From: Diphasiastrum complanatum
Lineage: Eukaryota > Streptophyta > Lycopodiopsida > Lycopodiales > Lycopodiaceae
Assembly: GCA_029204225.1 (NCBI GenBank)
Contig: MU831916.1
Span: 1-64,000, forward strand
Direction of reading: 5' to 3'
Length of the DNA stretch: 64,000 bases
A program made the translations under genes and the position numbers. Below the pieces are notes generated by a model. It was not told where the DNA came from, made no database searches, and saw only the letters and a program-made list of their open reading frames with translations. This document shows, one piece after another, positions 1,765 to 63,617 of the stretch (within the stretch, counting starts at the first letter, position 1; every line of letters starts with the position of its first letter).

Positions 1765-2429
1765 CCAACTGTGAAAATTGTCAACATTTCCTAGCTAGTT
1801 TGAGGCCTAAATTGGCTAAAATTGTAAATAGTTTTGGTTCTGGAGTTTCACACGTGTGAACCAGGCCACAATGTTTTTATTTACTGTATTTTTTCAGTAT
1901 GATGAAGTGTCAAACTTCATACCCTTCAAAATGAGACCATTTTGATGTATTTTGGTCATATAAGCCATTTTTAGCTATTTTTCCTATATAGGGAATATCT
2001 AGGGTCAAGTACCTTCTAGAGAGAGGAGAGAGAGTCATCTTCCTCATCCATAAATAGTAGGGAAGTCGTGGAAAACAGGTTGGAGAAACCTTTTGTATGC
2101 TTCATTGAGATCAATAGATCATTGTCATTGTTTCTTCCTCCATTGAGAGCATTGTTGTGTGTATTGTCTTCAAGCTATTGTGTATGATCTTAGGTGCTTT
2201 CCAAAAGTGGTAGGCTGATGTATTATGGACTGTATAATGCTATTTTGGGCCGCACTTGATGTTTATGGAAGTTTCCATTTGTGATAAATGCTTTTTGATC
2301 AAGTTCTTTGCATTCTAGGTAGCATAGAATGTGTTGCCAATTCCTAGCTTATGTAGTTTGGAGTGCAAGCATTCAAGCCAATGATCTTGGAGTTTAGATC
2401 CACTTAGGATCTGTATTTTTCTCACCAAC
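1765..2429 (+). mobile_element. Solo LTR of the E2 copia family, with TSD
   Basis: The LTR spans 1770-2424 and starts tgtgaaaattgtcaac. It is flanked by a perfect 5-bp TSD, ccaac, at 1765-1769 and 2425-2429. It matches the reverse complement of the LTRs of E2 (39236-39882 and 44144-44790) over its length, but is more diverged. The last bases read ttttctca rather than ttttcaca. One LTR with an intact TSD and no internal region is the expected product of LTR-LTR recombination. It contains the palindrome TTCACACGTGTGAA at 1847-1860. Confidence 0.88.
1847..1860. promoter_or_regulatory. G-box palindrome TTCACACGTGTGAA in solo LTR
   Basis: A perfect 14-bp palindrome with CACGTG core, about 80 bp into the LTR. 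The same motif lies at the equivalent place in both E2 LTRs. CACGTG is the G-box bound by plant bZIP and bHLH factors. A role here is inferred. Confidence 0.45.
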
Positions 2430-20298: not shown

Positions 20299-20310
20299 GC
20301 TCTGATACCA
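20299..20310 (-). other. E1 primer-binding site (initiator tRNA-Met)
   Basis: The minus strand reads TGGTATCAGAGC directly after the 5' LTR. This is complementary to the 3' end of plant initiator tRNA-Met, the usual copia primer. Confidence 0.9.
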
Positions 20311-20992
20311 TGTAAAAATTACAGCAAATAAGGATCCTAAAACACTTGAAATGATGAGGAAAACAATAGATTATGATTTCATAAGATTAGCACAAGTTGA
20401 ACCATCAAAATCCATCAAAAATCTATGCTTGAACCTCACTAAATGGCCCAAATCCTTGAAGAAGGCTTCACACGTGTGAAAGTACGGCCTCCCACAGTCT
20501 GAGTACTGTACACCAGACCTACATTCAATCCTATAATCATTAGTAATCACAAGTACTCAAACAATTATGAACATAGAGAGCAATTGCACCATTATGAGAG
20601 AAAAAACATGAAATTGCTTGATTGATTTTGGTGAGATATCATCACCTATATATACATGATCCATCACGGTTTTGGGCAGGTATGAGTAGCCCTAAACCTA
20701 TCCCTAATGCTAATTTTGGTGGATCTTTCATCCCTACCAAGTTAGGGTTGGAATCTTGGAGATCCCTCAACAATGCAAAAATTACCAAAAATAGCTCCTA
20801 TTTTTTCTCCCTTGTATCTAAGCATAATTTGGACTCATTCCAAAGGTTCTAACACTTAGATCTACTTGAGAACATCCTTATGAATGGAATCCTATGCTAT
20901 TTGGCACGTGTGACAAGCCACATCATGACCATCTAACTATTTACAAGTCATATGACCAAAACTAGTCAAGCTAGAATTGTGAATTTTTAACA
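20311..20992 (-). repeat. E1 5' LTR
   Basis: 682 bp and near-identical to the 3' LTR. The internal open frame at 20622-20852 on the opposite strand is duplicated in the other LTR and is not a gene. The palindrome lies at 20467-20480. Confidence 0.95.
20467..20480. promoter_or_regulatory. G-box palindrome in E1 5' LTR
   Basis: The same perfect 14-bp palindrome as at 15915-15928, in the 5' LTR that drives transcription. Confidence 0.45.
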
Positions 20993-30018: not shown

Positions 30019-31015
30019 ATATGTCTTCAACTGGTTCACATTTTTTGGAGCATAATAAGAGATTAAGATTTTTCAATTATGCAGTGTGGAATATCAGAAT
30101 GGAATCATTATTGATTCTATAGGATGTAATGGACATTGTAAGTGGAGTTGAAGAAGAACTTGCAGCACCTAATGAAGCTGCATCATTCAATAAAAGAACC
30201 AGAATTGCCCTTCAATTCATTAAAATGAATGTCACAAATGAAGTGTTAAGAGAGATCATTACATGCACTACTTCCAAGGAGGCTTGGGACACTCTCAAAA
30301 CAATCTATGAAATTAAGAATACTTCTAGATTGCTTACACTTAGAAATCTAATCTTTCTAAGTTATCAGAGAGTAGATGAGAGTGCTTCATCTTATGTAAT
30401 GAGAGTAAAGGATCTTCATCAAGAGTTAGCTGGTATTGGTGATGCTCTTAAGAACACTGAACTTGTTCAAGTAGTCCTTAATGGACTTAGAGATGAGTCT
30501 GACAATATTGTACACACTTATGTTGTCAGGGAGGAGCTTCCATCCTTGGAGACTCTACAGGAGTTCTCATTGCTGAAGAAAGCAGGCAAGAGAACAAGAT
30601 GTTGAGGATCAACAGACTTTCATTAAAGGATGGTGGAGATGACAAAGCACTCTTTACCAAGGACAAGTCAAGAGGCAAGGGCAAAGGTAAAAAATGCTTC
30701 AAGAAGGACAAAGCCAAAGAAAGTAGTGAGGATCAATCCTCACAAGCTGCAACATCCAGTGGCAAAAAGAAGCTATCAAAGATCAAATATTTCTTTTGTG
30801 GAAAGAAGGGCCACTATGCATCAAACTGTTTCAAGAAGAAGAATTAATCCAAGCAATATAGCCTTACTAATGAGGAAGAGTGTGAGGGTATTGAGAGTGA
30901 AAGAGAGGATTCTTTAATAATGTCTAGCTTTTCATCTTTTCCTTTCAAGAATGAAGAAATATGGTGAATAGATAGTGGGGCTAGTTCCCATATGTCTAGT
31001 TCTAGAAAAATAATA
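30019..31015 (+). pseudogene. Copia gag and start of protease, truncated
   Basis: Gag starts MSSTGSHFLEHNKRL and carries a stop at about 30121. It continues DIVSGVEEELAAPNE, KMNVTNEVLREIITCTTSKE and VQVVLNGLRDESDNI. A frameshift lies near 30570, and the CCHC knuckle FFCGKKGHYASNC is at about 30795. After a stop, the protease motif reads W-stop-IDSGASSHMSSS at 30960-31005. The element ends just before the (GA)n tract. It is related to the element at 23627. Confidence 0.82.
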
Positions 31016-31048
31016 AATTGCTAATTATTTTCAAATTATAATACATAT

Positions 31049-31483
<435 letters not shown>

Positions 31484-34084: not shown

Positions 34085-34495
34085 GTGTATAATCCGTGCT
34101 TGAAAGTCAACAATTACAAAAGTATGACTAAAGTAGACAATTACATCCAGACTAGTTTTAAAGTAGAGTTCAAAACTATCTACCATTACCCTTTTCAAAT
34201 GCTTATCGGAACACCATCCCTTTTGATTACTCGCATTTATTCTTTGTTTGCTGTTATTTTCCAGAGAGTTCAAAGTTGGAAGCACGGAGGAATCATTGCA
34301 TTTACATTCTATTTGGTTCTTCATGTTCTAGTTACATCTTGATATGTAAAATTGGTGTAGACATAGTGAAGCATCCAATGTGGACACTATTCTCTATATC
34401 AATTATGAAAGTTACTATAAAACCATTTTAAAGAGGTCTATACTTAGGATGGAGATCATTCTCAAGATGGATCAAAGTTGTATGGTTAAAACTAT
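34085..34495 (+). pseudogene. Second copy of the E2-type unknown ORF, 3' end
   Basis: From about 34200 on, this matches the last part of the E2 ORF in nucleotides and protein. The reading frame includes HSEASNVDTILYIN and KRSILRMEIILKMDQS, against NSEASYMDTIIYIN and KRSILMMEIILKLEQS in E2. It ends at about 34495, where a copia RNase H tail begins. The conserved frame in a second, diverged copy shows that the E2 ORF is a family feature, not an accident of one insertion. Upstream limits are unclear. Confidence 0.72.
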
Positions 34496-34499
34496 GCAA

Positions 34500-34696
34500 G
34501 AAACAAGCATATGAAAGTGTCTTATCATTTTGTGAGAGAACAGTCATGGAAAAGGAGACGGAGATTCAGCATGTCTCATCAAGGGAGTGTGTGGCTGATA
34601 TCTTCACCAAAGCATTGGGAAAAGAATTGTTTATGAAGCATAGAATGTCACTTGGAGTTCTATCTAAATCTATGCTAAAACTAGTAGAAGAGGGAG
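34500..34696 (+). pseudogene. Copia RNase H tail
   Basis: YHFVREQ, then HVSSRECVADIFTKALGKEL and LGVLSKSMLKLVEEGV, followed by a stop and a polypurine tract (gaagagggag) before the LTR. A frameshift lies near 34545. Confidence 0.85.
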
Positions 34697-35321
34697 TGTG
34701 AAAATTTGTCAACTAGTTTGATTGTTTATTTGGCAATTTTGGGGCCAAGATCAAATATCAACTTAGAGATAGGTTTATGTTTGTCAATAAAGGCCTAAAT
34801 AGTGTTTGTACTATACTTGTCAAGTACATAAATGGATGAGGTCACATTTGGACCCATTCTAATTGGCTAGATTTCATACATTGCCTCTAGACTATAATTT
34901 CTAGGTTATTTGATGAAGTACCAAGAAGTTACCATTTAGGAAAAGTTTAGGACAAGTGGCCAAATGACATTTTGGAAGCTATAAATAGCTGTACCTGCAT
35001 GGAGAGATAATCATCAAAGTTTCTTTCTTTGTGCATAACTCATCTCTTGTGTTTCCATGTCCATCTCTTGCATATTTCTCAAGTTATCTTGATTTCTAGT
35101 TTGTAGAATGTCCATTTTGTTGTTGATCTTGCATCCACACGTGTGAAGGACAATAGGTTGTTGCTGTTATACGGACAAGGATAGTATTGTACTATATTTT
35201 TATGCTTATGATCAGATCTTCGTGATATATTATTTCTATCTTGTAGCTAAATCTAGATATGCACTCCAAATTGGCCCAAGATCTAAGATCCATCAAGTGT
35301 GTTTTGAATCTGAAATTTACA
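34697..35321 (+). repeat. Copia 3' LTR
   Basis: About 625 bp from tgtgaaaatttgtcaac to gaaatttaca. It has the palindrome CACACGTGTG at 35136-35145. It is related to, but distinct from, the family C and E2 LTRs. The right end is estimated. Confidence 0.7.
35136..35145. promoter_or_regulatory. CACACGTGTG palindrome in LTR
   Basis: The G-box palindrome, about 440 bp into the LTR, a position like that in family C. Confidence 0.4.
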
Positions 35322-36012
35322 TAGACAACATGTAACAAATTCCATTTTTTTGAGTCCAATCAACTGGTGGTTCATCGCTGGTTACCTAGCATGAAAAAAT
35401 GTTTATTTCAAAAGTGAAATGACTCTACAATCCACTGTGGACAACAAGCAAAGAGGGCTTTTTTTTTAAAGCATTCAATCCTTTTTACAAGATATAATCC
35501 AATGCTCCAATACATGCTGAAAAATAGCAAATATGATACCTAGAGTAAGCATAGACTATGCTTATAATTCATCGCTGAATCAATGCCGATGAGACATAGA
35601 AAAAGAAGTGTAACCAAGAGGTTCTTACCATATAGAAGAAGATGATAGGCATTGTCACAAAAAGAGATTTATAGTAATATCTGCATAGTTTGGTGTAGAA
35701 GATGTGGACTAATCTGTCTCATATATATAGTAGAGGGTCGTGGAACTTCTTGAGAATACAACAATGTGAATTGAGGGAGAAGCAATCACTCTTGTCCATA
35801 TGTTATGGCTAAGCTAGAAACATCGTAGAGTGTGTAACTTGTAGTAAAAGTAAGTACAAAGGGTTAAAAAGCACAAAAAAAATACCTTAAACAAGAGAGG
35901 CCTAATGTGGTAAGGGTAAAGGACCTTTTTAACGAAAGAACCGACCATCGTATGTTGCAGCCATGATGTACGTAGTGTAGTGGAGTAGTTTAAAACAAAG
36001 AACCATCCATGA

Positions 36013-36014
<2 letters not shown>
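35322..36014. other. No gene seen
   Basis: AT-rich, no long open frame, no recognised element. Confidence 0.4.
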
Positions 36015-36085
<71 letters not shown>

Positions 36086-36435
36086 AGTACAAAAACAAGC
36101 ATATTTTGAGAATGGAAATCTTGACTTTTTTCTTATTGTTGTCATCAAGTTATTAATAGAACACAAGAAAAGATGATACATAGAATACAATTATAATATG
36201 ATAAAACTCGGTGCTTCTCCATTGTTAATTTATTCACAGAGAGCTCTCTTTGTCTCTCTCATCTTAATGTTTAAAAAAGGCATATTTTGACAATTGAAGG
36301 TCGGTATTTTTGTCATCTTTCACATTTTTTTCATCATGTTGAAATAATACAAAAGAATAATGTATGTATCATAGATTGAAAATAATAAACAATTTATAAT
36401 TCGACAAATTACATACTACATTGCCCCCCCCCCCC

Positions 36436-36495
<60 letters not shown>

Positions 36496-36650
36496 TTAAT
36501 GTTTAAAAAAGGCATATTTTGACAATTGAAGGTCGACATTTTTGTCATCATGTTGAAATAATACAAAAGAATAATGGTTGCATCATAGTTTGCATCATAG
36601 TTTGAAGATAATAAACAATTTATAATTTGACAAAGTACATGCTACATGGA
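36015..36650. repeat. Tandem array: (CT)n plus about 170-bp unit, three copies
   Basis: Three units, each starting with a CT tract (36015-36080; a short one at 36243-36260; 36446-36492). Each continues with 'atcttaatgtttaaaaaaggcatattttgacaattgaaggtc', 'tttttgtcatc' and an 'acaaaagaataatg' block. The first unit is the most diverged. A run of 23 C (36424-36446) precedes the third CT tract. The open frames here are microsatellite artefacts. Confidence 0.8.
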
Positions 36651-39200: not shown

Positions 39201-39235
39201 TGGAGATTGGTGGAGTTGCCTAAGGACAAGAAAGC
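39201..39235 (+). pseudogene. Family C RT, left piece
   Basis: The sense frame WRLVELPKDKKA runs up to the E2 insertion. It resumes after the second TSD at 44791 as IGCKWIFKVKTNQDGSINK, reconstituting the start of a copia RT. Confidence 0.8.
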
Positions 39236-39882
39236 TGTGAAAAATACAGATCCTAAGTGGATCTAAACTCCAAGATCATTGGCTTGAATGCTTGCACTCC
39301 AAACTACATAAGCTAGGAATTGGCAACACATTCTATGCTACCTAGAATGCAAAGAACTTGATCAAAAAGCATTTATCACAAATGGAAACTTCCATAAACA
39401 TCAAGTGCGGCCCAAAATAGCATTATACAGTCCATAATACATCAGCCTATCACTTTTGGAAAGCACCTAAGATCATACACACAAAGCTTGAACTCAATCA
39501 CTACACAATGCCAACAATGGAAGGAGAACCCAATAGAAAAATCTCTCATTAAGCAAATGAATACAATGGATCTGCTCCAACCTGTTTCTCCACGGCCTAC
39601 CTGCTATATATAGCTGAGAGAGATGACTCTCTCTCCTCTCTCTAGACCCTCCTTACCTAAAATATGCCCTATATAGGTAAAATTGGCATATATGTCCAAA
39701 ATACATGAAAATGGACTCATTTCAAAGGTCTTGAAGTTTGACACTTCTTCATACTGAAAAAATACACTTACTAAAAATATCTAGACCTGTTTCACACGTG
39801 TGAAAAGTCAGATCCTAAACTATGTGCCATTTTTAGCAATTTTGGCCTAAAACTAGACAAGGAAATGTTGACAATTTTCACA
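39236..39882 (-). repeat. E2 3' LTR
   Basis: 647 bp, sense on the minus strand. A TATA-like tatatata lies at about 39604-39612, 275 nt from the LTR start. The palindrome (39791-39804) is about 190 nt upstream of it, in U3. Confidence 0.95.
39791..39804. promoter_or_regulatory. G-box palindrome in E2 3' LTR
   Basis: Perfect TTCACACGTGTGAA in U3, upstream of the TATA box. Confidence 0.5.
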
Positions 39883-39894
39883 CTCCCTCTTCAA
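39883..39894 (-). other. E2 polypurine tract
   Basis: TTGAAGAGGGAG directly before the 3' LTR. It starts one base after the ORF stop codon. Confidence 0.8.
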
Positions 39895-39895
39895 C

Positions 39896-42800
39896 TTAAC
39901 TTGCTAGTTTTACAACACTACTTTGTTCCAACTTAAGAATGATCTCCATCATCAGAATAGATCTCTTCTCAAGGATCCTAATATGTACAAAATAGGACAC
40001 AACATAATTGATATAGATAATAGTGTCCATATAGGATGCTTCACTATTTCTTACATCAATTTTACATAGAATCATAAAAATGGTACATGTAAAAGAACAT
40101 AGAATCTCAATTAATGAATTCCTCCATGTATCCATCTCTGGTTTCTCTGTAAAATAGCAGCAAACAAGTTGTAAATGAAAGTGATCAACAAGTGTTTGCA
40201 TGCCTCCTCCACATTTCACTATACATATAGTGAATGCAACATGTATCTCCATGAATGAACTTCCATCACCACCTTGCCTTTGTAGATCTTCAATCCATGA
40301 AAGCCTTTGAGTGAATGAATGCCAAAAAGATGTGTTCCCTACTCCATTTGAATGACCAAAACCTGAACTTGAAATACTTGAAGTACCTCCACAAGATTTG
40401 CACACAACGCTTGATCCTACAATGTCAACAAGTTGCCAATTTGCCAACACTAGAATACTAGATCTTGAACTTTGTTCAAAAGAAAACATATTGACCACTT
40501 CAATACCTTTCAAGATCTGAATGAATTCATGTACTTGATCATACAAACCAGCAATGATAACTATTCCATCTCCAAGATCCAAAGGATGCAAAACTATGGA
40601 ACTAGTTTTATTGAAATTTGACAATTTCAACACATTGACATAACAATGTTCATACATGAGATTAGGCAAGTGAGGTAGAGTAAGAAGACACTTCCTTGCA
40701 GCTCCAAAGACCTTACTTGAACCTTCAAGAACCTGTAAAAACAGATCCAAAATGCCTTGACCATTTGTCTCTTCTTTGATGCTTTTCACTAGCTTCGAAT
40801 TGCCACTTGTCTCTTGGTGTTGATGAAGCAATCCAAGATCAACCTCTTGATCTTCCAATAAGACATCAAAGATCTTGCATATGTGAACATCTTCAGATCT
40901 GAAACTCTGAAGATACTCCCTCTCAAACACATGATTAAGATCCCACAAGATCTCATCAATGCTCAAATTTGACCCTTCACTATAGTTAGTGAAAACAATG
41001 CCACCATCATAAACCAAAAGATAGATTCCAACATTTCCATTTAACATGAAGTAGAGTAGGTGAAGATGAGTATCAAACCTAATCAAAACAGCCCTCTTGA
41101 GTTCATAACAAACCTCAATAAGCTCACCAATGATATCTCCCTTGCCTTGAAGAAGTTGCCACTTGAGTTGCTCCATGTAGTCTTCTTCAACCAACCTTTT
41201 GCCATCTTGACCATGAATGAACAATCCACCACAATCATAGAATGCTTTGAGTTGATGAAGAGATGTTAGATCCATGCTTTGGATCTTCCCAAGAACCACT
41301 CTTCCATTGCCCTTTCCTTCACAAGACTCCCTCTTAATGCTAGCACCACAAAAGTTAGAAACCTCCCTCTTGATAGTTGCACCATAAGAAGTAGAAGACT
41401 CTTGAATATTAGAAGCCAAGAAAAGAATCCTTAGTACCTTCAACATAAGAGTGATTGAAGTACTCTCTCTTTTCAAACATGAACTTCTACTCAATGATTT
41501 AGGTAATGAGTCATATGATAATGATTCTTCCTCACTATCGTTCATAAAAACATCATTCAAAGTACATCCTACTTTGAACACTTCACATACTTCTCTTCCT
41601 TTTGACTTGTGATCTCCCTCACCAAGTCTCATGATAGAAACCTTTGATCTACTCTTTTTATGAAGAAATGTGACACCACTTGTTGCACAAATGACTTTAT
41701 CACAAAAAGATGTAAAAGAACCATTTCCTTCAAGCATGCTCAAAGCACCATCATCTTTTCCCACATGATTACATACATCAATATGAAAAGAATTAGAAGA
41801 ACAACCATCTTCTTGCAAAGAATGACACTTAGCATCTCCATCTTTTTCCATATGAACAAACAAGTCATTAGCAACAATCACTTCCAAAGAAGAATCTTCA
41901 TCAACTCCATTGATGAAGTTAGCTCCTTCCTTACCTTTTCCATTTTTGCACTTGCCATCTAGTTCCATTGAAGAGCCACCAAGACTTGAAAATCTATGAG
42001 TAGAAGAGTTCAAACATGATACTAATTTAGCACCACATGACTCCATTTGACTAGTAGGTAGCACTAGTCCATCTTCAAGATCCAATGGATCCAAAAAATT
42101 GACCATAGATTCACCAAAGCTTGCCAAGTTAGCACAACAATTATCATCTCCAAGAAGTACATTAGATCTCAACCTAGATCTAGCATTTTGTTTCTTATGG
42201 CATTCATTTGCAAAATGTCCTTTCACTCCACAATAAAAACATTTGAACTTGGACTTATCTTGCTTCCTACTTTGCAAAGAAGAAGAATGCTTTCCATGCT
42301 CCAAACTACCTTGCTTGGACCACTTGCCTTTGAACTTGCCCTTTGTGAAAAGAGCTTCTTCATCTCCACCTTGTGTTGATGCACCACCACCTTTGGCTTG
42401 CAACCTATGCTCTTCAGCCACCAAGATCTCTTGCAAGTCATTGACACTTGGCAAGGACTTTTGTATAGCAAAGCATTGTACAAGGTTAGAATGTTCATCA
42501 AGCAAACCATTCAACATGACTTGAACTAGTTCCCCATCCTTTATGCTTTCATCTATGCATGCTAGATCATCATTCAAGGATTTAACCTTCAAGACAAATG
42601 AATGTGCACTCTCTCCCTCTCTTTGACAACTTTGGAAGATTTGCCTTCTTAGGGTGAGAACCCTAGATGTGGATTTGGACTCATAGATCTTCTTCAAAGC
42701 ATTCCATGCTTCACTTGAAGAAGTACATTTACCAACTTCTTTAAGAAGTTCATTGGTAACATTCATCTTTATGATATGTAAGGCTCTTTTAGCCCTTCTA

Positions 42801-42970
42801 TCAAAATTTAGTTGCTCTTGAAGAATTAGAGGACTTTCTTCAATTCCCACAACTATATCCATTAGCTCATTCAACTCTAGTAAAGACTCCATCCTCACTT
42901 TCCAAGTTGAATAGTTTGTAGAGTTTAACCTCTCTTTAGCTTCCAACATGATTCCACCATTGGATGTCAT
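39896..42970 (-). CDS. E2 Gag fused to about 750 residues of unknown protein
   Basis: The open frame starts at 43036, but the ATG at 42970 (residue 23 of that frame, MTSNGGIMLEAKERLNSTNY) matches the Gag starts at 26632 and 38232 and is preferred. Numbering here follows the 43036 frame. Gag (UBN2 type) runs to about residue 260, with a CCHC knuckle at 266-279 (CFYCGVKGHFANEC). The rest, 280-1046, has no DSG protease, integrase DDE, YVDD or RNase H motif. It is Ser/Cys-rich at first (HVGKDDGALSMLEGN), then hydrophobic and mixed. It contains two similar segments, LDPLDLEDGLVLP and LHPLDLGDGIVII. It ends with CKIDVRNSEASYMDTIIYIN and MMEIILKLEQSSVVKLAS. No signal peptide is seen. A diverged relative at 34.2-34.5 kb keeps the same C-terminal frame. 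I do not recognise the domain. It could be captured host coding sequence or heavily remodelled pol. Confidence 0.85.
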   Translation of the reverse strand: MTSNGGIMLEAKERLNSTNYSTWKVRMESLLELNELMDIVVGIEESPLILQEQLNFDRRAKRALHIIKMNVTNELLKEVGKCTSSSEAWNALKKIYESKSTSRVLTLRRQIFQSCQREGESAHSFVLKVKSLNDDLACIDESIKDGELVQVMLNGLLDEHSNLVQCFAIQKSLPSVNDLQEILVAEEHRLQAKGGGASTQGGDEEALFTKGKFKGKWSKQGSLEHGKHSSSLQSRKQDKSKFKCFYCGVKGHFANECHKKQNARSRLRSNVLLGDDNCCANLASFGESMVNFLDPLDLEDGLVLPTSQMESCGAKLVSCLNSSTHRFSSLGGSSMELDGKCKNGKGKEGANFINGVDEDSSLEVIVANDLFVHMEKDGDAKCHSLQEDGCSSNSFHIDVCNHVGKDDGALSMLEGNGSFTSFCDKVICATSGVTFLHKKSRSKVSIMRLGEGDHKSKGREVCEVFKVGCTLNDVFMNDSEEESLSYDSLPKSLSRSSCLKRESTSITLMLKVLRILFLASNIQESSTSYGATIKREVSNFCGASIKRESCEGKGNGRVVLGKIQSMDLTSLHQLKAFYDCGGLFIHGQDGKRLVEEDYMEQLKWQLLQGKGDIIGELIEVCYELKRAVLIRFDTHLHLLYFMLNGNVGIYLLVYDGGIVFTNYSEGSNLSIDEILWDLNHVFEREYLQSFRSEDVHICKIFDVLLEDQEVDLGLLHQHQETSGNSKLVKSIKEETNGQGILDLFLQVLEGSSKVFGAARKCLLTLPHLPNLMYEHCYVNVLKLSNFNKTSSIVLHPLDLGDGIVIIAGLYDQVHEFIQILKGIEVVNMFSFEQSSRSSILVLANWQLVDIVGSSVVCKSCGGTSSISSSGFGHSNGVGNTSFWHSFTQRLSWIEDLQRQGGDGSSFMEIHVAFTICIVKCGGGMQTLVDHFHLQLVCCYFTEKPEMDTWRNSLIEILCSFTCTIFMILCKIDVRNSEASYMDTIIYINYVVSYFVHIRILEKRSILMMEIILKLEQSSVVKLAS

Positions 42971-44131
42971 GATGCTAAAATCTTCTTGTGTCCTTAGGCT
43001 CTGTTCTAATGCACCTAGCACTCTCCTTTCTCTCAATAAATGAAGAAGGAGAAGATCTTAAAAGATTTAGAACCCTAAATGACCTCTATCTTGAAACTAT
43101 TTGGCTTTCAAGCATAGAAAGGAAGATTGAAACACATGCAACACTTTGCACACACTAAGAATGGATTACAAACTCAAACCAACCTGAACACACTCTTGCT
43201 TAAGCTCTCAAACTTTCCAGCAAGTGACCAAATCAAGTTATGGTGTGAAGAGTTACTTGCATTCTTAGAAAATACCCAAAACTAGGATGCCAAAATTACC
43301 TAGTAATGAACAAACTTGATCAACATATGATCACCACACTAAGATATTGATTCAACCTGTAAAACCACATGTAAACCACACTTCTAAAAGTTTATAAACT
43401 CCAGCAAGTGATAAATACAAGATTTAGAGGTGAATGAATGAGCACACTTAGTGAATCACAAGACTAGCTTCACTATCTTGTCAAAATTTGGTGTTTAGAT
43501 GTAGATCTAAGATCACTTCACATGAGAATGTTCCTCAACCTGTTAAGAACCTGAAAACACACTTGCATAATGGTTAACACCTTCCAGCAAATGCTCCAAT
43601 CAAATTACATAAGGAGAGTTACTTACATGCTCAACAAAGTACACCAAAATTTATGCCAAAATTGATGACAATCTTTACAATATGCTCTTCACAATGGAGC
43701 TTTCAATATGTTCACCCAAAAAAGGGGATCTTTCATCCAAATGGGAGCTTTGCTCAGCCTTTAGGAGAATTACAACTCACTCAAAAGAGCATTTGTCATC
43801 CACTTAAGGAGAAGTTTCATCCACTTAAGGAGAGTGTTCATCCAAGAATGGAGATTGTCAACAATAGGATTGAAAAGAACATTGTTAGTATTGAATATGC
43901 ACAAGCCTCACAATCACAAATGATTAGGTGTTATGATCTGATCCAAAATAGTTTCTTTTCAGCCTCTGATCTTCAATAGACCTGAAATATGCTTTTGATC
44001 CACAAGTTCAACTCACAAAACAAAGGTTAGTAAGATTTGATCAACAAAGCAATGCAAAATCATGCTAGAACTTGATCAAACATCCAAATATCACCAAAAA
44101 TGGAATACTTACTGTAAATAGAAGCCAACCA
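42971..44131 (-). other. E2 leader
   Basis: About 1.1 kb between PBS and Gag. It contains imperfect direct repeats: blocks with 'aggagagttacttacatgc' or 'gaagagttacttgcattc' and 'ccagcaa(g/a)tg' recur at about 43215-43310, 43395-43450 and 43590-43660. The 108-codon frame on the other strand (43653-43979) contains a duplicated HPLKE motif from a 21-bp tandem repeat and is not considered a gene. Confidence 0.5.
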
Positions 44132-44143
44132 GCTCTGATACCA
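44132..44143 (-). other. E2 primer-binding site (initiator tRNA-Met)
   Basis: The minus strand reads TGGTATCAGAGC, abutting the 5' LTR. Confidence 0.9.
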
Positions 44144-44790
44144 TGTGAAAAATACAGATCCTAAGTGGATCTAAACTCCAAGATCATTGGCTTGAATGCT
44201 TGCACTCCAAACTACATAAGCTAGGAATTGGCAACACATTCTATGCTACCTAGAATGCAAAGAACTTGATCAAAAAGCATTTATCACAAATGGAAACTTC
44301 CATAAACATCAAGTGCGGCCCAAAATAGCATTATACAGTCCATAATACATCAGCCTATCACTTTTGGAAAGCACCTAAGATCATACACACAAAGCTTGAA
44401 CTCAATCACTACACAATGCCAACAATGGAAGGAGAACCCAATAGAAAAATCTCTCATTAAGCAAATGAATACAATGGATCTGCTCCAACCTGTTTCTCCA
44501 CGGCCTACCTGCTATATATAGCTGAGAGAGATGACTCTCTCTCCTCTCTCTAGACCCTCCTTACCTAAAATATGCCCTATATAGGTAAAATTGGCATATA
44601 TGTCCAAAATACATGAAAATGGACTCATTTCGAAGGTCTTGAAGTTTGACACTTCTTCATACTGAAAAAATACACTTACTAAAAATATCTAGACCTGTTT
44701 CACACGTGTGAAAAGTCAGATCCTAAACTATGTGCCATTTTTAGCAATTTTGGCCTAAAACTAGACAAGGAAATGTTGACAATTTTCACA
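44144..44790 (-). repeat. E2 5' LTR
   Basis: 647 bp, essentially identical to the 3' LTR. TATA at about 44513-44520, palindrome at 44699-44712. Confidence 0.95.
44699..44712. promoter_or_regulatory. G-box palindrome in E2 5' LTR
   Basis: Perfect TTCACACGTGTGAA upstream of the TATA in the promoter-bearing LTR. Its position is the classical one for a G-box enhancer element. Confidence 0.5.
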
Positions 44791-46210
44791 AAAGCTATTG
44801 GATGCAAATGGATCTTCAAGGTGAAGACAAACCAAGATGGATCCATCAACAAGTAAAAATGCAAGGTTAGTGGCAAAAGGATAAGCTCAACAAGGGATTG
44901 ACTATGATGCGACCTTTGCACCCGTGGCAAAGATAGTAAGCATTCAAGTCATCATTTCACTTGCTACACTTTATGGATGGGATCTATGGCAAATGGACAT
45001 TTCAAATTCATTATTGAATGGTGATCTTGAGGAGGAAGTGTACATGGAGCAGTCCGAGAGCTACATTTCATCAACAAAGCCAAATCATGTGTGTCTACTA
45101 CAAAAGAGTTTTTATGGCCTTAAACAAGCACCAAGGAGTTGGTATGCTAAGCTTAGCACTTTTTTACTCTCTCAAGGCTTTGTTATGAGTGAGTATGATC
45201 ATTCACTTTATTATAGGTTTGCTGAAAATGATGTTACCATCTCGCTAATCTATGTGGATGATATTATCTTGAGTGGTGGAGACAATCAAGATGTGGAGGA
45301 TATCAAGAATGCTCTTAAGAAGGAGTTTGAGGTCCATGATCTTGGTAATTTGCATTACATTTTGGGAATAGAAGTCATTAGATCTTCTCAATCTACTTTC
45401 ATTTTTCAAGATAAGTATGCTAATTCTATTCTAGAAATATTTCATATGGTAGATGAAAAAGCTAGTGATACACCTATGCAGTCTCATGTAAAGCTAACTA
45501 TAAGAGGTAATGAAAGATCCTTCGAGGACATTACTCTCTATAGGAAGCTAGTTGGTTCACTCAGCTATCTAACCATTACTAGACCAGATCTAAGCTATTG
45601 TGTTGGAAGATTGAGTCAATTCATGCAAGATCCTAGTGAGGAGCATTGGAAGTTAGGAAAGCGAGTTTTGATATACATCATTGGAACTCGAGATTTTTGC
45701 ATATTGTATGAGAGATCATCATCTAATCTTTTTGGATTTTCAAATTCGGACTATGCTGGAGATGTAATGCATGGGAAATCCATTAGTGCTCATTGTGTTT
45801 TCATAGGTGATGGAGCTATATCATGGATGTCAAAGATACCATTGTCATCTAGTGAGGCCGAGTACAAAGCTCTTACACATTGCACAAAGGAGATGGTATG
45901 AATCAAGAGGATGATCAAGGATCTTCACTTGCTAGATTTTTCAAAGAGCCCAATCATCTTTTGTCACAATCAATCAGTCCAAAGTTGGCAACCAATTCTA
46001 TCTTTCATACTAGGAGCAAGCATATTGAGGTGCAATATCATTTTGTGAGGGAGCAAGTCATTGCAAAGGAGGTGGAGCTTCAACATGTGTCTTCAAGAGA
46101 ATGTGTAGCTGATATCTTCACCAAAGCATTGGGAAAGGACTTGTTCATGAGGCATAAGACTTCACTTGGAGTGCTATCAAAGTCTATGCTAAAACTAGTT
46201 GAAGAGGGAG
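44791..46210 (+). pseudogene. Family C copia RT-RNase H
   Basis: Continues from 39201-39235. It has a stop or frameshift near 44855-44885, then ATFAPVAKIVSIQVIISLAT, DISNSLLNGDLEEEVYM, LQKSFYGLKQAPRSWYAKLS and the catalytic YVDDIILSGGD at about 45253-45285. Connection and RNase H follow: TRPDLSYCVGRLSQFMQDPS, FSNSDYAGDVMHGKS, SSSEAEYKALTHCTKEMV. A frameshift at about 45900 precedes the tail FHTRSKHIEVQYHFVRE, CVADIFTKALGKDL. The usual FSDSDWAG is FSNSDYAG here, and the QETVSLS block is shortened. Dead, and split by E2. Confidence 0.9.
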
Positions 46211-47250: not shown

Positions 47251-47294
47251 AAAAAAAAAACCTATTACTCACCCTACCCCCTTCCCTCATTGAC

Positions 47295-47296
<2 letters not shown>

Positions 47297-47362
<66 letters not shown>
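47297..47362. repeat. (CT)n microsatellite, 33 repeats
   Basis: 66 bp of CT followed by cccccc, embedded between two copies of the 'ctattactc' minisatellite word. Confidence 0.97.
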
Positions 47363-47365
<3 letters not shown>

Positions 47366-48550
47366 CCCTAGCCCTCCCCTATTACTCGCTTTAAAAAAAC
47401 AAGGACGATGTGGTATTGAACCACAAAGGCCTTGTCGTGTCATAATAGCATGAATCCTAAAATTTTAGGATTTGTTTAAAGTGTTTTTTTATATTGTTGT
47501 GATAAATTATTTTGTAGTTTCAAAATTTGTATAGTAGTTTGTTGTAAGTTTTTAATAGACATTTAAATGTTAGATGTAATCTATAATATTTGTTATTTAT
47601 TTTAAAAGTCAATTCATTATAAGCAAAGTTTTTTTTTAGTTGATTCCATTCTTGTACTTGTTGGCTTTTTCAAACAATGGCCCAAATTTTGAATCAATTA
47701 AAATCCTAATTAAAAAGGATAAATTTGTTATATGACTTTGTTAGATTTTGAGCATTTTGGCCCATGAGTTTATCTTGTTTTAGGAGAATCGTCGATTCTT
47801 TCTTTGTACTTTGCAATTTTTTTGAAATTTCCTCCATGTTTTTGTATGAAATCTTCAACAGAGATTTCTTGCTCACTGAAATTGCTCAATGGATTCATTA
47901 TTGTGTTTTTCGCTTTGCTTAATAGTTGATAATATTCATTTGTTTTTTGTACTTTCTCAAGTAATAAATGATGTTGTTGTTTAATAGTTGTGAGTCTTGA
48001 TGGACTTGCTTAAATTTGTTAACAACCGACATTTGTGGCAAGTAATGAAATTGATTTATTAGAGAGTGTAGATTTTGTTTCATTGTTTCTGTCCATTTGT
48101 ATCGCTTTTGTTTTTTGTTGTTTGACGAGATACAAGATTCTATGGTTGTTCTTGCTTCTTTCCAAAGATATACTTCTACTTTGTTGTCAGTATTTGTTTG
48201 TATAATGATGATTTTCATTGTTCCAATTTGGATTGATGCATGTCACAATTTTTCGAATTGTTGTTGTTGAATCAATGTCACAATGATATACTAATAACTT
48301 ATAAGTCATGCATTTGCAAAACCAAAACAAACAAAAGCTGTCAAATTGGATCGATTTTCTAGTGTTCTTTCCAAATCGTAGCATCACAATTATTTTCTCT
48401 TAAACTTAGCAAAAAGCATTGCACAACATTTGCTTGAATGTTGTTCGACATAATATGATGATTCAATAGAAATGAAAAGTTGTTGACATTCATAATTTGT
48501 ATTTACGAAAGTCCATATTAATCACGATTACGTTGTAGAGTATTTTAGTA
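47363..48550. other. No gene seen
   Basis: Very AT-rich. The open frames at 47919-48387 on the minus strand lack recognisable motifs and have low-complexity composition. Confidence 0.4.
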
Positions 48551-58109: not shown

Positions 58110-58942
58110 TGTGAAAAATGCAAAAATAAGCTTGGTAGAGGCCAAAAATCTTGTATATAGATAAACACACATGTATGGAGCCTGTTCCCATGTGTGAAAA
58201 TAGTGTACTTGTCATATACCATAATCATATAGGTTGTACATATGATTTAATTCAAGTTCTAGTGGCTAAAAAGGCCAAAAACTAGTTTTCTAGACATATG
58301 ACACATGGCATCAATCTATTGCTTGCATGAGCCACATCCTTTGGTTAGGTGTCACATCCCATGTGTAGAGGACAGCTAACATGTGTGGAATAAGCTGATG
58401 TAGACGAATTTTGACTTCTAGAATATTTTCAAGTACATCTCCATATAGAAGGAAAATGGACCAAAAGTGCTCAAAATAGAAGGCTTTGTCAAAGTGTCAG
58501 TTTTGCATGATGAATCATCATATGACAAAGCACCTTCACACATGTGGGATCAAAGGGATGATCAGTACCACGAGCTGCCACTTATTGTATATATAGATCC
58601 ACATTTGGCCATAATCAGTGTGCGACACCAATCTTGGTTTTGGAAGCAATTTTGAGTGATTCTCTCCATTTGTCTACATTTGTTTTGATTGTTTTGAGGT
58701 GCTATCAATGTGGACTTGATTTTCAGGTTGGATTCCGTACTCAGACAGGGTTTCACACGTGGGAAACCAGAAAGTACACCTACCTTCAATTAATGATTGT
58801 TCTTGTTAGGGTTTTGTGTCTAGAATTGATCTAGATTGATCTTAATCTCAAGTAGATTGATAGATCAAGTAATCTGACAACCAATCCCTCTTGAGGATCA
58901 TATTAGGATCCACTCTTGGTCCTTTTTGTACTTTTTTACACA
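58110..58942 (+). repeat. E3 5' LTR
   Basis: 833 bp from tgtgaaaaatgcaaa to ttttttacaca, directly before the PBS. It contains several palindrome-like words: cacacatgtatgg, cccatgtgtgaaaa, ttcacacatgtggg and tttcacacgtgggaaa (58751-58766). Confidence 0.85.
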
Positions 58943-58955
58943 TGGTATCAGAACC
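58943..58955 (+). other. E3 primer-binding site
   Basis: tggtatcagaacc, directly after the LTR. One base differs from the initiator tRNA-Met complement (tggtatcagagcc). Confidence 0.8.
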
Positions 58956-60454
58956 TAGTACAAGAGGTTTTGTTGAAATTGATAGGGTAAATCCAAATCA
59001 AAGCCAAAATTAGCAGTTTTTTGGAAACTAGTCAGATTTTGTGTAGCGAGTTGGATTTGATAGCTATCCTCAAAATTTTTGGTCCAGATCTTGTCGTGGG
59101 CTGTAGGAATTCTTTTCACACGTGTGAGGCCATACAGCTCCAGTTTTGATTGAGAAATTTCAAAAAATTGTAGAATTTGACTTACATACCCAATTTGAGA
59201 GATTTTTGGTGCAAAATCAAGCATTTTCTATAGAGAATCTAATACCTTGATTGGTTCTTGGATTAGATCAGCCAAGAAATTAAATTTGACGTTTGAAATA
59301 GGTGCATTAATTGATCTTCTCTAAATTTTTGAGTGTATGTTGAAGTTACAGAGATTTTGCTAAAAATCATAGATTAAGGAGTGATATGCAAGGTGAGAGG
59401 TTGAAATCCATTGTTCCATCACTCTAGATTTGTTCAAGAGTGATAGGGTCAAGTTTAGAAGCATCAATTTACTAGAAAACATCCTTGGATCTGTCCTCCA
59501 AGTGAAACCTTTGAGAGTTTCTAGTGCATATAGAGCATTTATGCAAATCTTTTGTAGAATTTGACATAGATTGGCTTCAATTGAAAGTTCTAGAAAAGAG
59601 ATTGAGATCCAAGTCACATTATTCAATCCTACTCAATTTGTTTGAGTGTTTGTGAGGTTTGAAAAGAGTCATTAAGGTGTCTATGGGAAATATGTAGAGA
59701 GAGATCCAATTTTCTAAGAATTACTTCTTGTGTAGAGGACAAGATCTAGAAGCTCATTATGTGTTGTTATTGGTGAAGAATTTGTCTTCTCCAAGGTGAT
59801 CAAATCTTTCTAAGTGGTATTAGCTCTTTGAAGCACAATATCTTAGTGAGAAAAATCACAACTTTTGATTTTGAATTTCATTATGTATGAAACTCAAATT
59901 AGTTCTATTCAACTTTCTTTGTGAGAGTGTGAGGGTCAATTTGTGATCCCATTGGATGTCTAGAATGAGGAGGAGTCCATATTTGAGTATTCATGCATGG
60001 TTGAGATCTTTGTGAATCTCTTGTCTAAATTTTTAAGCTTTGTGAAAAATTGGTGGTATAGTTTGTTTTCAAATCAAATCAAATTCATTCTAAATCTCAA
60101 GAGTGAGATTATTTGGGTCAAGAGTGAGTCCAAAAGAAGTGATTAAGTTTGATTTTCATGTGTTTGAAACAAAACCCATCTTTTGTTCAAGAAACTCAAG
60201 TGTTGAAGAACTAGTCAAGTGAAAAGGAAAATCTAGGTGTCAAATCTTTTCATATCCATTTCAATTTTCAAAAGAAAGAGTCATTGGTATTTGATGAGTC
60301 CAATAGGAGATTGGATCTGATTTCTTTTGTGATTTGATTCAAAGATTGTGTGCTTTTGTCTTAGTGATCAAAGCAAGGTTTCCAAGTGACTAGTCATTAG
60401 TGTGAAAATTGATTCTTAGGTTTGTGAGTTAGATCTTTTGTAGATCCTTCTATA
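58956..60454 (+). other. E3 leader or lost Gag N-terminus
   Basis: 1.5 kb without a conserved frame; the Gag UBN2 region is not recognisable. It holds one TTCACACGTGTGAG at 59115-59128. Minus-strand frames here show no family motifs. Confidence 0.45.
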
Positions 60455-61169
60455 TTGTTGAAGATGTTCAAATCTAGTCTCTTGAGAGTCACAAATTACA
60501 TTTGTAGAATCATATCACAGGTTTTTATTCACATAGTATCAATAGGTGGCATCCTATTGAAGGAAAGAAAGGATCCTAAGTGCAACCTTTGTGACAAGGA
60601 AGGATATATTTTCTCAAGATGCTACAAAAAGAAGACCAATCCATCCAAGGAGAACCAAAGGCAAGGGGGCCGAGGTGAAGGATGGAGCTTCAAGTTCGAA
60701 ATGCAAATACAAGAAGGACAAGTCCAAGGAAAGGTGTTTCCTTTGTGGAAAGGTGAATGAGGCTTGGAGTCTCACAAGGACTTGCAAGATTTGTCTTCAA
60801 GAGTCCATCACAACACATGTCAAATCTTTTGAAATTTTTCATTTGGAAGTGCATTGTTTGGTTCAAGATGCAAAGATAGATGTCACTTTCATGAAAGTAA
60901 CTTGGATTTATTTTATGTCCTTGGAAAGTATTTTGCTTGGAACTTTAGATAAGTTCAAACTTATTGTTATGATCCAAGAGAAATCAATCAAGAATGAGGA
61001 GCATCAATCACAAAATGAAAATGGTTTCATTTATGCTCTCATGTCAACTTATGAAGATCTATTTTGCTTTGAAGGGATTTGTGTATCTCAAAGGTGGCTT
61101 AAGGCAATACTAGTTGAGTGTGATGCCTTAAAGTATAGCAAAGCATGTTTTCCTTGTAAGCTTACATGA
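60455..61169 (+). pseudogene. E3 Gag knuckle region and first unknown part
   Basis: Two overlapping frames. The first (60455-60760) carries the knuckle CNLCDKEGYIFSRC, in which the zinc His is replaced by Tyr. The second (60591-61169) carries a second half-knuckle, ERCFLCGK, and lysine-rich linkers typical of copia Gag. It then carries unknown sequence including ICVSQRWLKAILVECDAL, which resembles the W..AM..E.DAL start of copia RT. It stops at 61169, three bases before the next ORF. Confidence 0.6.
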
Positions 61170-61172
61170 GTT

Positions 61173-62441
61173 ATGAAGACAAGGAAATGGAAATATCTTC
61201 ATAATGTAGGATCTTTTGGTTTCAATAAGATCATGAATGATGTCTTCATTCATAAAGATGAAAATTGTATGTTTTCAATCCTAAAGGCAAGTTGTAAACT
61301 TCTTATGAGAATAAGTGAAGCATCCAAAGTGGACACTTATATCCATAAGCAAGTAGTTAGCCTTATTGAGATGGAAATACCTTTTGATTTCAATATTGGA
61401 AAAATCATGCCAAGTTGTGGTGATTTTTGGACTTATGTTTCTAGCATAGGTAATCTTAATAATCATAGGAAGTGCATATTGAATGGTCATGATTGTTGTG
61501 ATCATTATGAGACATGGAGGTCTCGGATTTCCATAAAAAAGGAACATCATGAAGAGGATCTTAAGGAGTCATCTCAAGGTTCAAGTGTGCCAAGGATTGA
61601 GGAGGAGAGTCCTTCTCAAGGTTCAAGTATGTCAAGGATTGAGGAGGAGAGACCTTCTCAAGTTGTGATTCCAAAAAGAATATCAAGAAACATGGTTGAG
61701 TCCATGTGGCTCACATTTCAAGGGAAAGAGGAGCATACCTCATGTGGTATACATCTCATACTTACTTCTCCTATGGCATTTGATAAATCAATTTACTTTA
61801 GTGAGATCATTGCATCTCAAAATTGGAGTAAAGCCATACTAGTTGAGTATGAAGTCTCTCTTGAGAACATAGATGATGTGCTTAAAAGGTTGAAATTGAT
61901 TTTAAATCAACTAAAAAGCAAATGTTTATTTCATCAAATGTATGCTCTTGAGTCATGTAAGAGCAAAAGTGATTTGTTCACTCATAGTTTGAAAATTTGT
62001 ATTGAGGCAAATTGTAAACTCTTTATGAGAGTAAGTGAATCATCTTCTAAAGACACTTATCTCCATAATGAAGTATTTAGCCTCATTGGATCTGAGATTA
62101 GCATGGTAAACAAGCATGAAGATATGATGCAAACACTTTGTTATTATAGCATGCATAGTCTTGCCAATTTGGATAAGTCTAATTCTCTAGATCATGGTAA
62201 CATGATGTTAGATCTTTGTGATCCTAATAAGTCAAGAAGAAATCTTTATTTTCTCTTGGAGGAGCATGCACATGAAGAAGGAGCAAGCCTCAAAGTCAAG
62301 CATCTACATGAAATTTGGAAGGAATCAATTTCGAAGATGCTAGGATGGTGCAAAGCTCTCAAGTTCATCAAAGATGTCAACATCAAAGAAGCACTATCAT
62401 GGATATGGCGATTTCAGATCAACATCAAGCTCATTGGCTGA
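61173..62441 (+). CDS. E3 long ORF, unrecognised, with internal repeats
   Basis: 422 codons, no stop. The module CKLLMRISEASKVDTYIHKQ (about residue 35) is repeated as CKLFMRVSESSSKDTYLHNE (about residue 285). The segment IIASQNWSKAILVEYEVSLE repeats a motif of the preceding ORF. A middle linker contains the twin units GSSVPRIEEESPSQ and GSSMSRIEEERPSQ, like the linker after copia integrase (RIEEESPRI at 25929). So part of this ORF seems built from duplicated scraps of pol, and part (the SE.S..DT module) is shared with E2. No catalytic motif is present. Function unknown. Confidence 0.6.
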   Translation: MKTRKWKYLHNVGSFGFNKIMNDVFIHKDENCMFSILKASCKLLMRISEASKVDTYIHKQVVSLIEMEIPFDFNIGKIMPSCGDFWTYVSSIGNLNNHRKCILNGHDCCDHYETWRSRISIKKEHHEEDLKESSQGSSVPRIEEESPSQGSSMSRIEEERPSQVVIPKRISRNMVESMWLTFQGKEEHTSCGIHLILTSPMAFDKSIYFSEIIASQNWSKAILVEYEVSLENIDDVLKRLKLILNQLKSKCLFHQMYALESCKSKSDLFTHSLKICIEANCKLFMRVSESSSKDTYLHNEVFSLIGSEISMVNKHEDMMQTLCYYSMHSLANLDKSNSLDHGNMMLDLCDPNKSRRNLYFLLEEHAHEEGASLKVKHLHEIWKESISKMLGWCKALKFIKDVNIKEALSWIWRFQINIKLIG

Positions 62442-62548
62442 TCTTCACACCTTTTGAACCAGCAAAGACCAATTCAGCCCATGGAGTCAAGTTCAAGATC
62501 ATCATGTTTTCCATCAAGCTAGATTTACCAAGCTAGATTTTTGAGGAG

Positions 62549-62674
62549 TGTGAAAAATGCAAAAATAAGCTTGGTAGAGGCCAAAAATCTTGTATATAGA
62601 TTAAACACACATGTGTGGAGCCTGTTCCCACGTGTGAAAATAGTGTACTTGTCATGTACCATAATCATATAGGT
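62549..62674 (+). repeat. E3 3' LTR, truncated
   Basis: The first 126 bp match 58110-58234 with about four changes and a 1-bp insertion. This LTR carries cacacatgtgtgg and cccacgtgtgaaaa, closer to the perfect palindrome than its 5' partner. Confidence 0.85.
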
Positions 62675-63617
62675 AAGCTGATCACAATCTCCTTATCCCA
62701 ATACTTGAAAGCAAAGCATTTCACAATTGGGGTATTGATTTTGTTGGACCCATAGCAGCATGTGGCACATCATCACAATATATTTTGATTGCCACTGATC
62801 ATGCAACAAAGTGGATAGAGGCTAGAGCAACACGAAAAGCAGATGCAAAGTCTATAACATGCTTCCTCTATGAAAACATCATCACTAGATTTGGTTGTCC
62901 AATAGAGCTTGTTAGTGATCGAGGTTCTCACTTCCTTAATAAAGTAATTAACAGTTTACTGACTTATTACTTCGTTATCCACCAAAAGAGTATCCCGTAC
63001 TATCCTAGATGCAATGGACTAGTTGAGTCTACGAATAAAACAATTTGTAAAATCTTAATCAAGATAGTAGAAACCAGTTGATTAGACTGCGAAACAAAGT
63101 TATTCTCTGCTATTTGGGCATATCACACAACGCCAAAGCGAGCCACGGATTGGAAAACACCATTTGAGATGGTATATGGCCAAGAGGCTGTTATGCCAAT
63201 AGAATCTATAATTCCGTCCTTACGCATCACTTTAGCTTATGCCAAAGACTTGTGTGACGATAATGCTTATCAACACCAAGATCAGAATCGATTTTTCATG
63301 TTGACAAAACTGTGTGAAACACGACTTATATCCTACCATGCACAGTTAGTCCACAAACGATGACATAAGGTCTGGCATGATCGTCATGTCCGGACTAAGG
63401 ATATTCACGATGGCGATAAAGTTTTACTTTACACATTTTCAAAAATCCATCCAGGAAACTTAAAATTTCGTAGCCAAGGTCTTTATGTTGTCCATAAATT
63501 TTTTACAAATGGTGTCGTGCAATTAGAGACACTCGAAGACATGCCCCTTGATACCTTACTCAATGGTAGTTGTATACGGCGATCCTATGAAGATACCTTT
63601 ATCATAAATCCTGTTTA
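62675..63617 (+). pseudogene. Ty3/gypsy integrase, C-terminal pol
   Basis: FHNWGIDFVGPIAACG supplies the first catalytic Asp, ELVSDRGSHFLNKVI the second, and YYPRCNGLVESTNK the Glu, so the DDE triad is intact. After a stop at about 63081 it continues SAIWAYHTTPKRATDWKTPF and EMVYGQEAVMPIES. After another stop at 63361 come HDRHVRTKDIHDGDKVLLYT and a tail ending TFIINPV, stop at 63617. The N-terminal zinc domain is missing because E3's LTR is fused at 62674. It may belong to the same family as the RT at 20998. Confidence 0.88.

Follow-up and report, generated by a model that had tools for sequence, protein, structure and literature searches.

The window that we analysed is a 64-kb stretch of Diphasiastrum complanatum DNA (contig MU831916.1, positions 1 to 64,000). 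On its minus strand lies E2 (39236-44790), a copia-type LTR retrotransposon without pol, which is made up of the following parts:

39231..39235: target-site duplication (TSD) AAAGC, left copy, from the sequence
39236..39882, minus strand: 3' LTR, 647 bp
39883..39892, minus strand: polypurine tract (PPT) GAAGAGGGAG, adjoining the 3' LTR
39899..42169, minus strand: extension X, 757 codons, without a pol domain and with no homolog found
39900..40188, minus strand: tail of X, matching a decayed fragment (34223-34500) at 73% of nucleotides
42170..42970, minus strand: Gag, a copia capsid domain plus CCHC knuckle CFYCGVKGHFANEC, starting at the ATG (42970); assigned by Pfam, identity to the neighbouring element E1, and omega
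42971..44131, minus strand: leader, ~1.2 kb, with an internal 73% repeat (43181-43297 and 43548-43663)
44132..44143, minus strand: primer-binding site (PBS) TGGTATCAGAGC, adjoining the 5' LTR
44144..44790, minus strand: 5' LTR, TGTGAAAATT...TTTTTCACA, 647 bp, one difference from the other LTR
44791..44795: TSD AAAGC, right copy, from the sequence

E2 is a recent insertion. Its LTRs, which end in TG..CA, have a sole difference in 647 bp (39724 A / 44632 G), its TSD is 5 bp long, and once its flanks are rejoined another copia element regains its frame through the N-terminal part of reverse transcriptase (...LVELPKDKKAIGCKWIFKVKTNQDGSI...). An earlier note on this DNA had described 647-bp LTRs with one difference, a TSD, a PBS and a PPT, all of which we re-derived from the E2 sequence, and had taken E2 for a recently moved copia-type element, which the single LTR difference and the clean empty site bear out. 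The PBS is of a type that we take to be that of the initiator-Met tRNA. One full-length copy of E2 is present within the window.

Reading frame, Gag and the extension X

E2 carries a single intact reading frame, as the earlier note had claimed. The listed frame (39896-43036) has 1046 codons counted from a TTG; the start that aligns with the Gag of E1 is residue 23, the ATG at 42970, so we take the natural product to be 1024 amino acids long. It stops 13 nt ahead of the 3' LTR. A frame of this length by chance is ruled out: in 300 simulated 5.5-kb sequences the longest stop-free run was 172 codons.

The frame opens with a copia Gag, in which Pfam recognised Retrotran_gag_2 (PF14223, 4e-22) and DUF4219 (PF13961); the CCHC motif of the zinc knuckle (PF00098) is present, with a Pfam score under the cut-off. 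This Gag is 53% identical to that of E1, and a protein search with it returned three copia proteins at 25-29% identity. Its omega is 0.06-0.15 against three relatives; the pairs with E1 and with the 29.9-kb Gag are both saturated at synonymous sites, so that the value against E1 is a bounded estimate and the 29.9-kb pair is left out. Purifying selection on Gag and pol domains is seen in the window, at omega 0.06-0.27 in five pairs.

Does X conceal a pol? Residues 290-1046 match nothing in Pfam at E ≤ 10, in a search whose HMMER filters discard most hits with E beyond about 0.1, and E1, a gag-pol element, matches E2 in Gag only; we therefore rejected a hidden pol, in agreement with the earlier statement that no copia pol motif follows the CCHC knuckle. 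Because there is no match to pol (PR-INT-RT-RH), we class E2 as a copia derivative and not as an autonomous copia. No homolog of X appeared at E ≤ 1 among 7219 candidate proteins, a search that covered proteins of about 575-1830 aa. Six weak PDB matches to the E2 frame (E 0.13-7.1) fall every one at the zinc knuckle and none in X, and neither this frame nor a 422-aa ORF of a second element, E3, has relatives in the viral-contig or genome-contig collections. The structure prediction that the earlier note had called for, run with single-sequence AlphaFold2 on residues 560-1046, was uninformative: the mean pLDDT was 31, with 0 residues at 50 or above. An antisense gene within X was also set aside, the listed antisense frames there reaching at most 100 aa.

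The codon-position bias of X lies above a stop-avoidance null overall (p = 0.0005), which suggests past amino-acid constraint; residues 800-930 and 930-1046 do not exceed that null. The test is an insensitive one, because the E2 Gag itself stays within the null (p = 0.25). Against the decayed fragment at 34.3 kb, omega is 0.37 (CI 0.17-0.89) over the final 44 codons of X that align, hinting at constraint there, and 2.27 (1.06-7.48) over the 45 codons preceding them.

Sibling element E3 and other relatives

Elsewhere in the window lie these features:

1770..2424, plus strand: older solo LTR of the E2 family, ~85% identity, with a CCAAC direct repeat at both ends
34687..34706, plus strand: copia RNase H-bearing remnant, its 20-nt PPT and LTR start identical to those of E2
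58110..62674, plus strand: E3, with 5' LTR 58110-58942, PBS 58943-58954, a non-pol ORF and the start of the 3' LTR 62549-62674, where it is cut off
60561..62441, plus strand: E3 reading frame with an in-frame stop (61167-61169) and two diverged tandem modules of ~160 aa each

The LTRs of E3 are 97% identical over 126 bp, and the only protein match to its non-pol ORF is the D. complanatum protein P0004. Its two modules, which are paralogous repeats inside one protein and not orthologs of E2, form the longest testable piece of extension, and as a pair have an omega of 0.89 (CI 0.59-1.39). They contain one stop, against 11.4 expected in simulations started from the stop-free module; none of 2000 runs ended with one stop or fewer (the smallest had 2), and the mean was 12.1 when the start was the stop-bearing module. 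Under five frame-blind MAFFT settings the internal gaps were always 3, 3, 6, 12 and 9 nt; the ragged end of the alignments has a gap of 5 and, in four of the five, another of 4. Gaps in a cheap-gap BLAST alignment were not multiples of 3. Across these comparisons the modules remained open as their residues diverged almost freely.

The module profile ties E2 to E3 only weakly: its whole score on E2 was reached by 14 of 300 shuffles, and the score of its best domain there by 1 of 300. Pairwise protein comparison of X with E3 gave p = 0.04 overall, and 0.59, 0.03 and 0.01 for residues 290-560, 560-930 and 930-1046. On the whole-profile and overall pairwise figures, the proposal that X consists of diverged copies of the E3 module is weak, and we do not adopt it. 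A 55-nt in-frame match joining X and E3 beats 200 of 200 codon shuffles.

Gag relatives of E2 at 26.6 kb and 31.8 kb and the X-tail fragment at 34.2 kb, together with the solo LTR and E3, are signs of a wider group around E2. Its 20-nt PPT/LTR-start block recurs at three other sites within three mismatches (one of them exact), against 0.02 expected, and the remnant at 34687-34706 is a possible marker of an enzyme-donor lineage. The exact PBS is found also in E1 and, twice more, on the upstream side of further gag regions; since loose PBS matches (6) are not in excess of chance (4.9), it is by position that this sharing counts. No complete autonomous partner for E2 was found in the window. E1, whose LTRs are near-identical, has lost ~314 residues, most of RT among them, and still has an open frame of 1014 codons.

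Possible roles of X

Why would a recently mobile element carry so long an extension? The earlier note proposed a parasite family with its own accessory protein, and of this the recent pol-less copia with signs of a wider group has stood, whereas a conserved accessory protein finds no homolog among the 7219 candidates (E ≤ 1) and faces an E3 omega near 1. A dedicated accessory protein with a conserved function of its own, perhaps in packaging, nuclear import or the evasion of silencing, is a tentative reading that we consider somewhat unlikely. The E3 modules without clear amino-acid constraint and the weak protein-level links between X and E3 tell against it, and on its side are the 757 codons open in a recently inserted copy, the codon-position bias beyond stop avoidance and the non-pol ORF that E3 likewise has, joined to X by the 55-nt match.

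X could also be non-functional filler, for which any open sequence would serve, held open against the nonsense-mediated decay that a long 3' UTR behind a Gag stop would bring on or for the sake of RNA length, as the position of the stop just ahead of the 3' LTR, the E3 modules that stay open though diverging nearly freely, and the long frame that E1 holds despite its lost residues would fit. We regard this as unlikely, however, given that the codon-position bias of X is greater than stop avoidance alone yields, that a literature search on the idea turned up nothing bearing directly on it, and that a TR-GAG element encoding Gag alone transposes with no extension of this kind (PMC8704663).

That X is host coding sequence, recently captured, joined to the Gag reading frame in the manner of maize Bs1 and open because its source gene was functional, seems improbable in view of the absence of Pfam domains (E ≤ 10) and of matches among proteins of about 575-1830 aa, and of the internal repeat within X and the recurrence of its tail in another element. 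It would account for a third-position T of 0.45 in X versus 0.33 in the E2 Gag (0.31 in E1, 0.39 in E3), which fits a different origin, and for the coding periodicity in residues 290-800, and LTR elements are known to capture genes (PMC7264820). An env-like membrane protein, to which a Kyte-Doolittle hydrophobic peak of up to 2.07 (windows starting at residues 973-978) might point, is highly improbable, as X is fused directly to Gag, its remaining peaks near 813 and 860 reach just 1.56 and 1.70, no peak in E3 exceeds 1.5, and the coding signal of X is weakest at the peak-bearing end.

Most likely, X matters more as an open frame than through its exact sequence and would for that reason evolve fast, a reading that we favour because the E3 modules, at omega 0.89, are yet in frame; the codon-position bias, the omega of 0.37 at the X tail and the BLAST gaps in E3 count against it. 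It is conceivable, if doubtful, that lycophyte copias possess a class of extensions continuing from Gag in which selection holds the frame open and leaves the residues free or even drives them to change, as a sequence-indifferent ORF or a protein in an arms race, with E2 and E3 as two members. A constrained Gag set against a free-but-open extension makes it possible to test whether selection acts on the protein or on the open frame.

A proposed lifestyle and its precedents

We think it fairly probable that E2 is a semi-autonomous member of Ty1/copia, making Gag-X itself and depending on other elements for PR, RT, RH and IN. How the element is built, that it lacks pol, that its frame is intact and its insertion recent, that cis signals are shared and that Gag is constrained are seen directly, and the proposal rests on the intact, constrained Gag without pol, the 1/647 LTR differences and the clean empty site, along with a PPT/LTR-start block common to the RNase H remnant and a PBS common to E1. 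The LTR promoter would produce one RNA, whose translation would give Gag-X, processed or unprocessed; Gag would form virus-like particles, X travelling as its extension, and an autonomous copia would provide PR, RT, RH and IN in trans, its enzymes recognising the shared PBS, presumably of initiator-tRNA type, the PPT and the LTR ends. Trans-mobilisation, the supply of Gag and all roles of X are what we infer.

How does such an element compare with known ones? LARD elements, which have no coding capacity and are moved in trans, resemble E2 in an internal domain without pol; E2 differs in its 1024-codon ORF with a constrained Gag. Bs1 is an LTR element with non-pol coding sequence from identifiable host genes, and E2 is likewise an LTR element with non-pol coding sequence, one for which searches of Pfam and of proteins of about 575-1830 aa found no host-gene source. 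Bs1 is named as a carrier of host-gene sequences in PMC7264820. Wheat RLG_Sabrina variants (PMC9744471) are without RT and INT, some having Gag-Pro and others unique coding segments; unlike E2 they are gypsy elements, and the segments replace Gag-Pro instead of extending an intact Gag. One TR-GAG element has been caught transposing in a ddm1 mutant of Arabidopsis, and its ORF is described there as Gag only, 562 aa (PMC8704663). It shares with E2 the LTRs, the single Gag ORF and the lack of pol, whereas E2 has 757 further codons after the knuckle.

The closest case is wheat RLG_Quinta, a non-autonomous, centromeric Ty3/gypsy element of which 935 full-length copies were isolated from a single accession; its ORF consists of Gag plus DUF1 without RT/INT, and its PBS and LTR ends are common to its proposed autonomous partner, RLG_Cereba (PMC11302176). 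The likeness to E2 is one of layout, Gag together with an uncharacterised domain, RT/INT being absent; E2 differs as a copia element in a lycophyte, with one full copy seen in the window, from a gypsy element with a named partner. RLG_Quinta (PMC11302176) and the transposing TR-GAG (PMC8704663) temper the earlier description of a pol-less Gag-plus-extension element as unusual. The precedents compared for keeping Gag and dropping pol are from angiosperms and the closest is gypsy, and a copia counterpart in a lycophyte would suggest that the loss of pol from elements that retain Gag and gain a new extension has originated repeatedly. By analogy, E2 would be the copia counterpart of a lifestyle already known in wheat gypsy elements, with RLG_Quinta as its direct precedent.

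Anatomy of E2 and its neighbours

E2, the pol-less copia-type element under study, is recently inserted, since its two 647-bp LTRs carry a single difference between them. AAAGC stands at both flanks, and joining the flanks restores the RT reading frame of another copia element, which shows E2 to be cleanly nested within it. With its primer binding site (PBS), polypurine tract (PPT) and long ORF also in place, the earlier note's description of a near-pristine element holds. An ATG at 42970 aligns with the Gag start of E1, a neighbouring gag-pol-type copia element, and gives a protein of 1024 aa; residues are numbered here from the TTG of the listed ORF (1046 codons).

Elements and fragments in the window
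39236-44790, minus strand: E2
44132-44143: PBS of E2
39896-43036: E2 ORF as listed, start codon TTG
15759-20992: E1, LTRs 99.7% identical, GTCTT directly repeated at both ends; ORF 16455-19499, minus strand
58110-62674: E3, with LTRs, a PBS with 1 mismatch and knuckle-like motifs, then a non-pol reading frame
1770-2424: solo LTR, about 85% identical to the E2 LTR, CCAAC on both sides
26.6-27.3 kb: relative of E2 Gag
31.7-32.2 kb: relative of E2 Gag
34223-34500: E2-type tail fragment sharing 73% identity with the final 289 nt of X, the extension of the E2 ORF after Gag
4611-4834, 30999-31198, from 50081; 35975-36512, 47258-47393, from 53345: tandem arrays and CT runs

E1, too, is a recent element that is non-autonomous and has lost sequence in frame: its gag-pol frame of 1014 codons is open despite the absence of about 314 residues, most of RT included, relative to P0002. 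Short-unit tandem arrays in an 8-base register recur across the window together with CT runs. On the minus strand at 11135-12710, three ORFs that overlap one another (177, 396 and 192 aa) look like pieces of a LINE-type reverse transcriptase.

At 34220-34720 an E2-type tail, a copia RNase H end, a PPT and an LTR start are joined directly. The tail fragment leads without a break into a copia element's C-terminal RNase H, and the 20 nt that follow (PPT and LTR start) are identical to E2's. This looks like a possible joint, made by template switching or recombination, between one element of the E2 type and another that bears pol; it would fit co-packaging.

Gag and the extension X

Copia Gag with its CCHC knuckle occupies residues 23-289 (Pfam). 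The claim that no pol follows the knuckle also stands: residues 290-1046, the 757 codons of X, match nothing in Pfam at E<=10 and nothing in the gag-pol of E1. They likewise have no match in the PDB and none at E<=1 among 7219 protein-collection candidates (proteins of about 575-1830 aa, a range outside which short relatives fall). Structure prediction for X was uninformative (mean pLDDT 31). X contains an internal repeat (76 alignment columns, 74%, E=1e-7) that exceeds 200 of 200 codon shuffles.

Could so long a frame be open by chance? This is ruled out, the longest stop-free run in 300 simulated 5.5-kb sequences being 172 codons. Codon positions in X are biased against a stop-avoiding null (p=0.0005, the lowest value that 2000 simulations allow), significantly so in each of four blocks over residues 290-800 (p 0.0005-0.008) and non-significantly in blocks 800-930 (p 0.14) and 930-1046 (p 0.15). 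A negative in this test means little, because E2 Gag, a proven coding region, scores p=0.25; the other yardsticks are E1 (p=0.0005) and E3 (p=0.005, its second half alone 0.09). The fraction of T at third positions is highest in X (0.45), followed by E3 (0.39), E2 Gag (0.33) and E1 (0.31), and X may thus differ in origin from Gag.

E3 and selection on the reading frames

E3 is regarded here as an element of E2's kind. Its LTR pieces share 97% identity across 126 bp, the 3' LTR being cut off, and no Gag capsid was found in it. The non-pol frame, built partly from two diverged tandem modules, has a single stop (61167-61169). Among 2351 candidates the sole match to the E3 ORF at E<=1 is P0004, a hypothetical protein of the lycophyte Diphasiastrum complanatum itself (49% of the query aligned, at 90% identity), which is open at the stop position and loses register further along. 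Past the cut LTR lies an integrase-like sequence (62908-63186), recognised from a single weak match with E1 (27% identity, E=4e-6).

A profile of the E3 modules (two window modules plus P0004) matches E2 weakly, its whole score being reached by 14 of 300 shuffles and its best domain by 1 of 300. In pairwise protein comparison p is 0.04 for the whole and 0.01 when only residues 930-1046 are compared, and an in-frame nucleotide match (55 nt, 76%) lies above 200 of 200 codon shuffles. Towards the end of X, E2 and E3 may be related; homology to the whole of X is unproven.

Selection was measured as omega (dN/dS; Nei-Gojobori, 1000 codon bootstraps). For E2 Gag it is 0.15 (CI 0.04-0.26) against the 26.6-kb relative, 0.06 (0.02-0.18) against the 31.8-kb relative and, with synonymous sites near saturation, 0.08 (0.06-0.23) against E1; the saturated pair with 29.9 kb was left out as the sixth. 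An integrase pair gives 0.24 (0.09-0.36) and an RT-RH pair 0.27 (0.12-0.42). The extension values concern paralogous or decayed pairs, not X across E2 copies: E3 module 1 against module 2 gives 0.89 (0.59-1.39) over 153 codons. The module pair holds 1 stop against 11.4 expected in neutral simulation from the stop-free module, and in none of the 2000 runs was the count as low as 1. MAFFT, run at five settings without regard to frame, places internal gaps of 3, 3, 6, 12 and 9 nt, while the ragged end adds one of 5 nt and, at four of the settings, another of 4 nt; a cheap-gap BLAST alignment splits the same stretch by gaps of other lengths. So the module frame stayed open while its residues changed nearly freely, for which the stop count is firmer evidence than the gap pattern. 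Paired with the 34-kb fragment, the E2 tail gives mixed values, 2.27 (1.06-7.48) for a stretch of 45 codons and 0.37 (0.17-0.89) for one of 44, which say little because the fragment carries stops and frameshifts.

Role of X and known systems

E2 combines this anatomy and a missing pol with an intact, constrained Gag, recent insertion and shared cis signals. An autonomous copia element would supply the enzymes in trans, Gag-X or processed Gag would enter particles, and X would be carried along with Gag. As to the role of X, a real accessory protein is a tentative possibility; slightly less probable is that the frame is held open in the interest of the RNA's stability or length, and captured host sequence is improbable.

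Titles and abstract openings, few from subscription papers, mention no lycophyte copia element of E2's build, and we do not claim its absence from print. Transposition of a TR-GAG element has been detected in Arabidopsis ddm1 (PMC8704663), RLG_Sabrina variants bear other coding segments (PMC9744471), and a review covers additional ORFs in plant LTR elements (PMC7264820). Wheat RLG_Quinta encodes Gag and a domain of unknown function without RT/INT, and RLG_Cereba is proposed as its mover from the PBS and LTR ends (PMC11302176). E2 resembles RLG_Quinta in having Gag, an extra domain of unknown function and no RT/INT; the observation is real and well observed, the lifestyle is already known, and the build of E2 is a variant of it.
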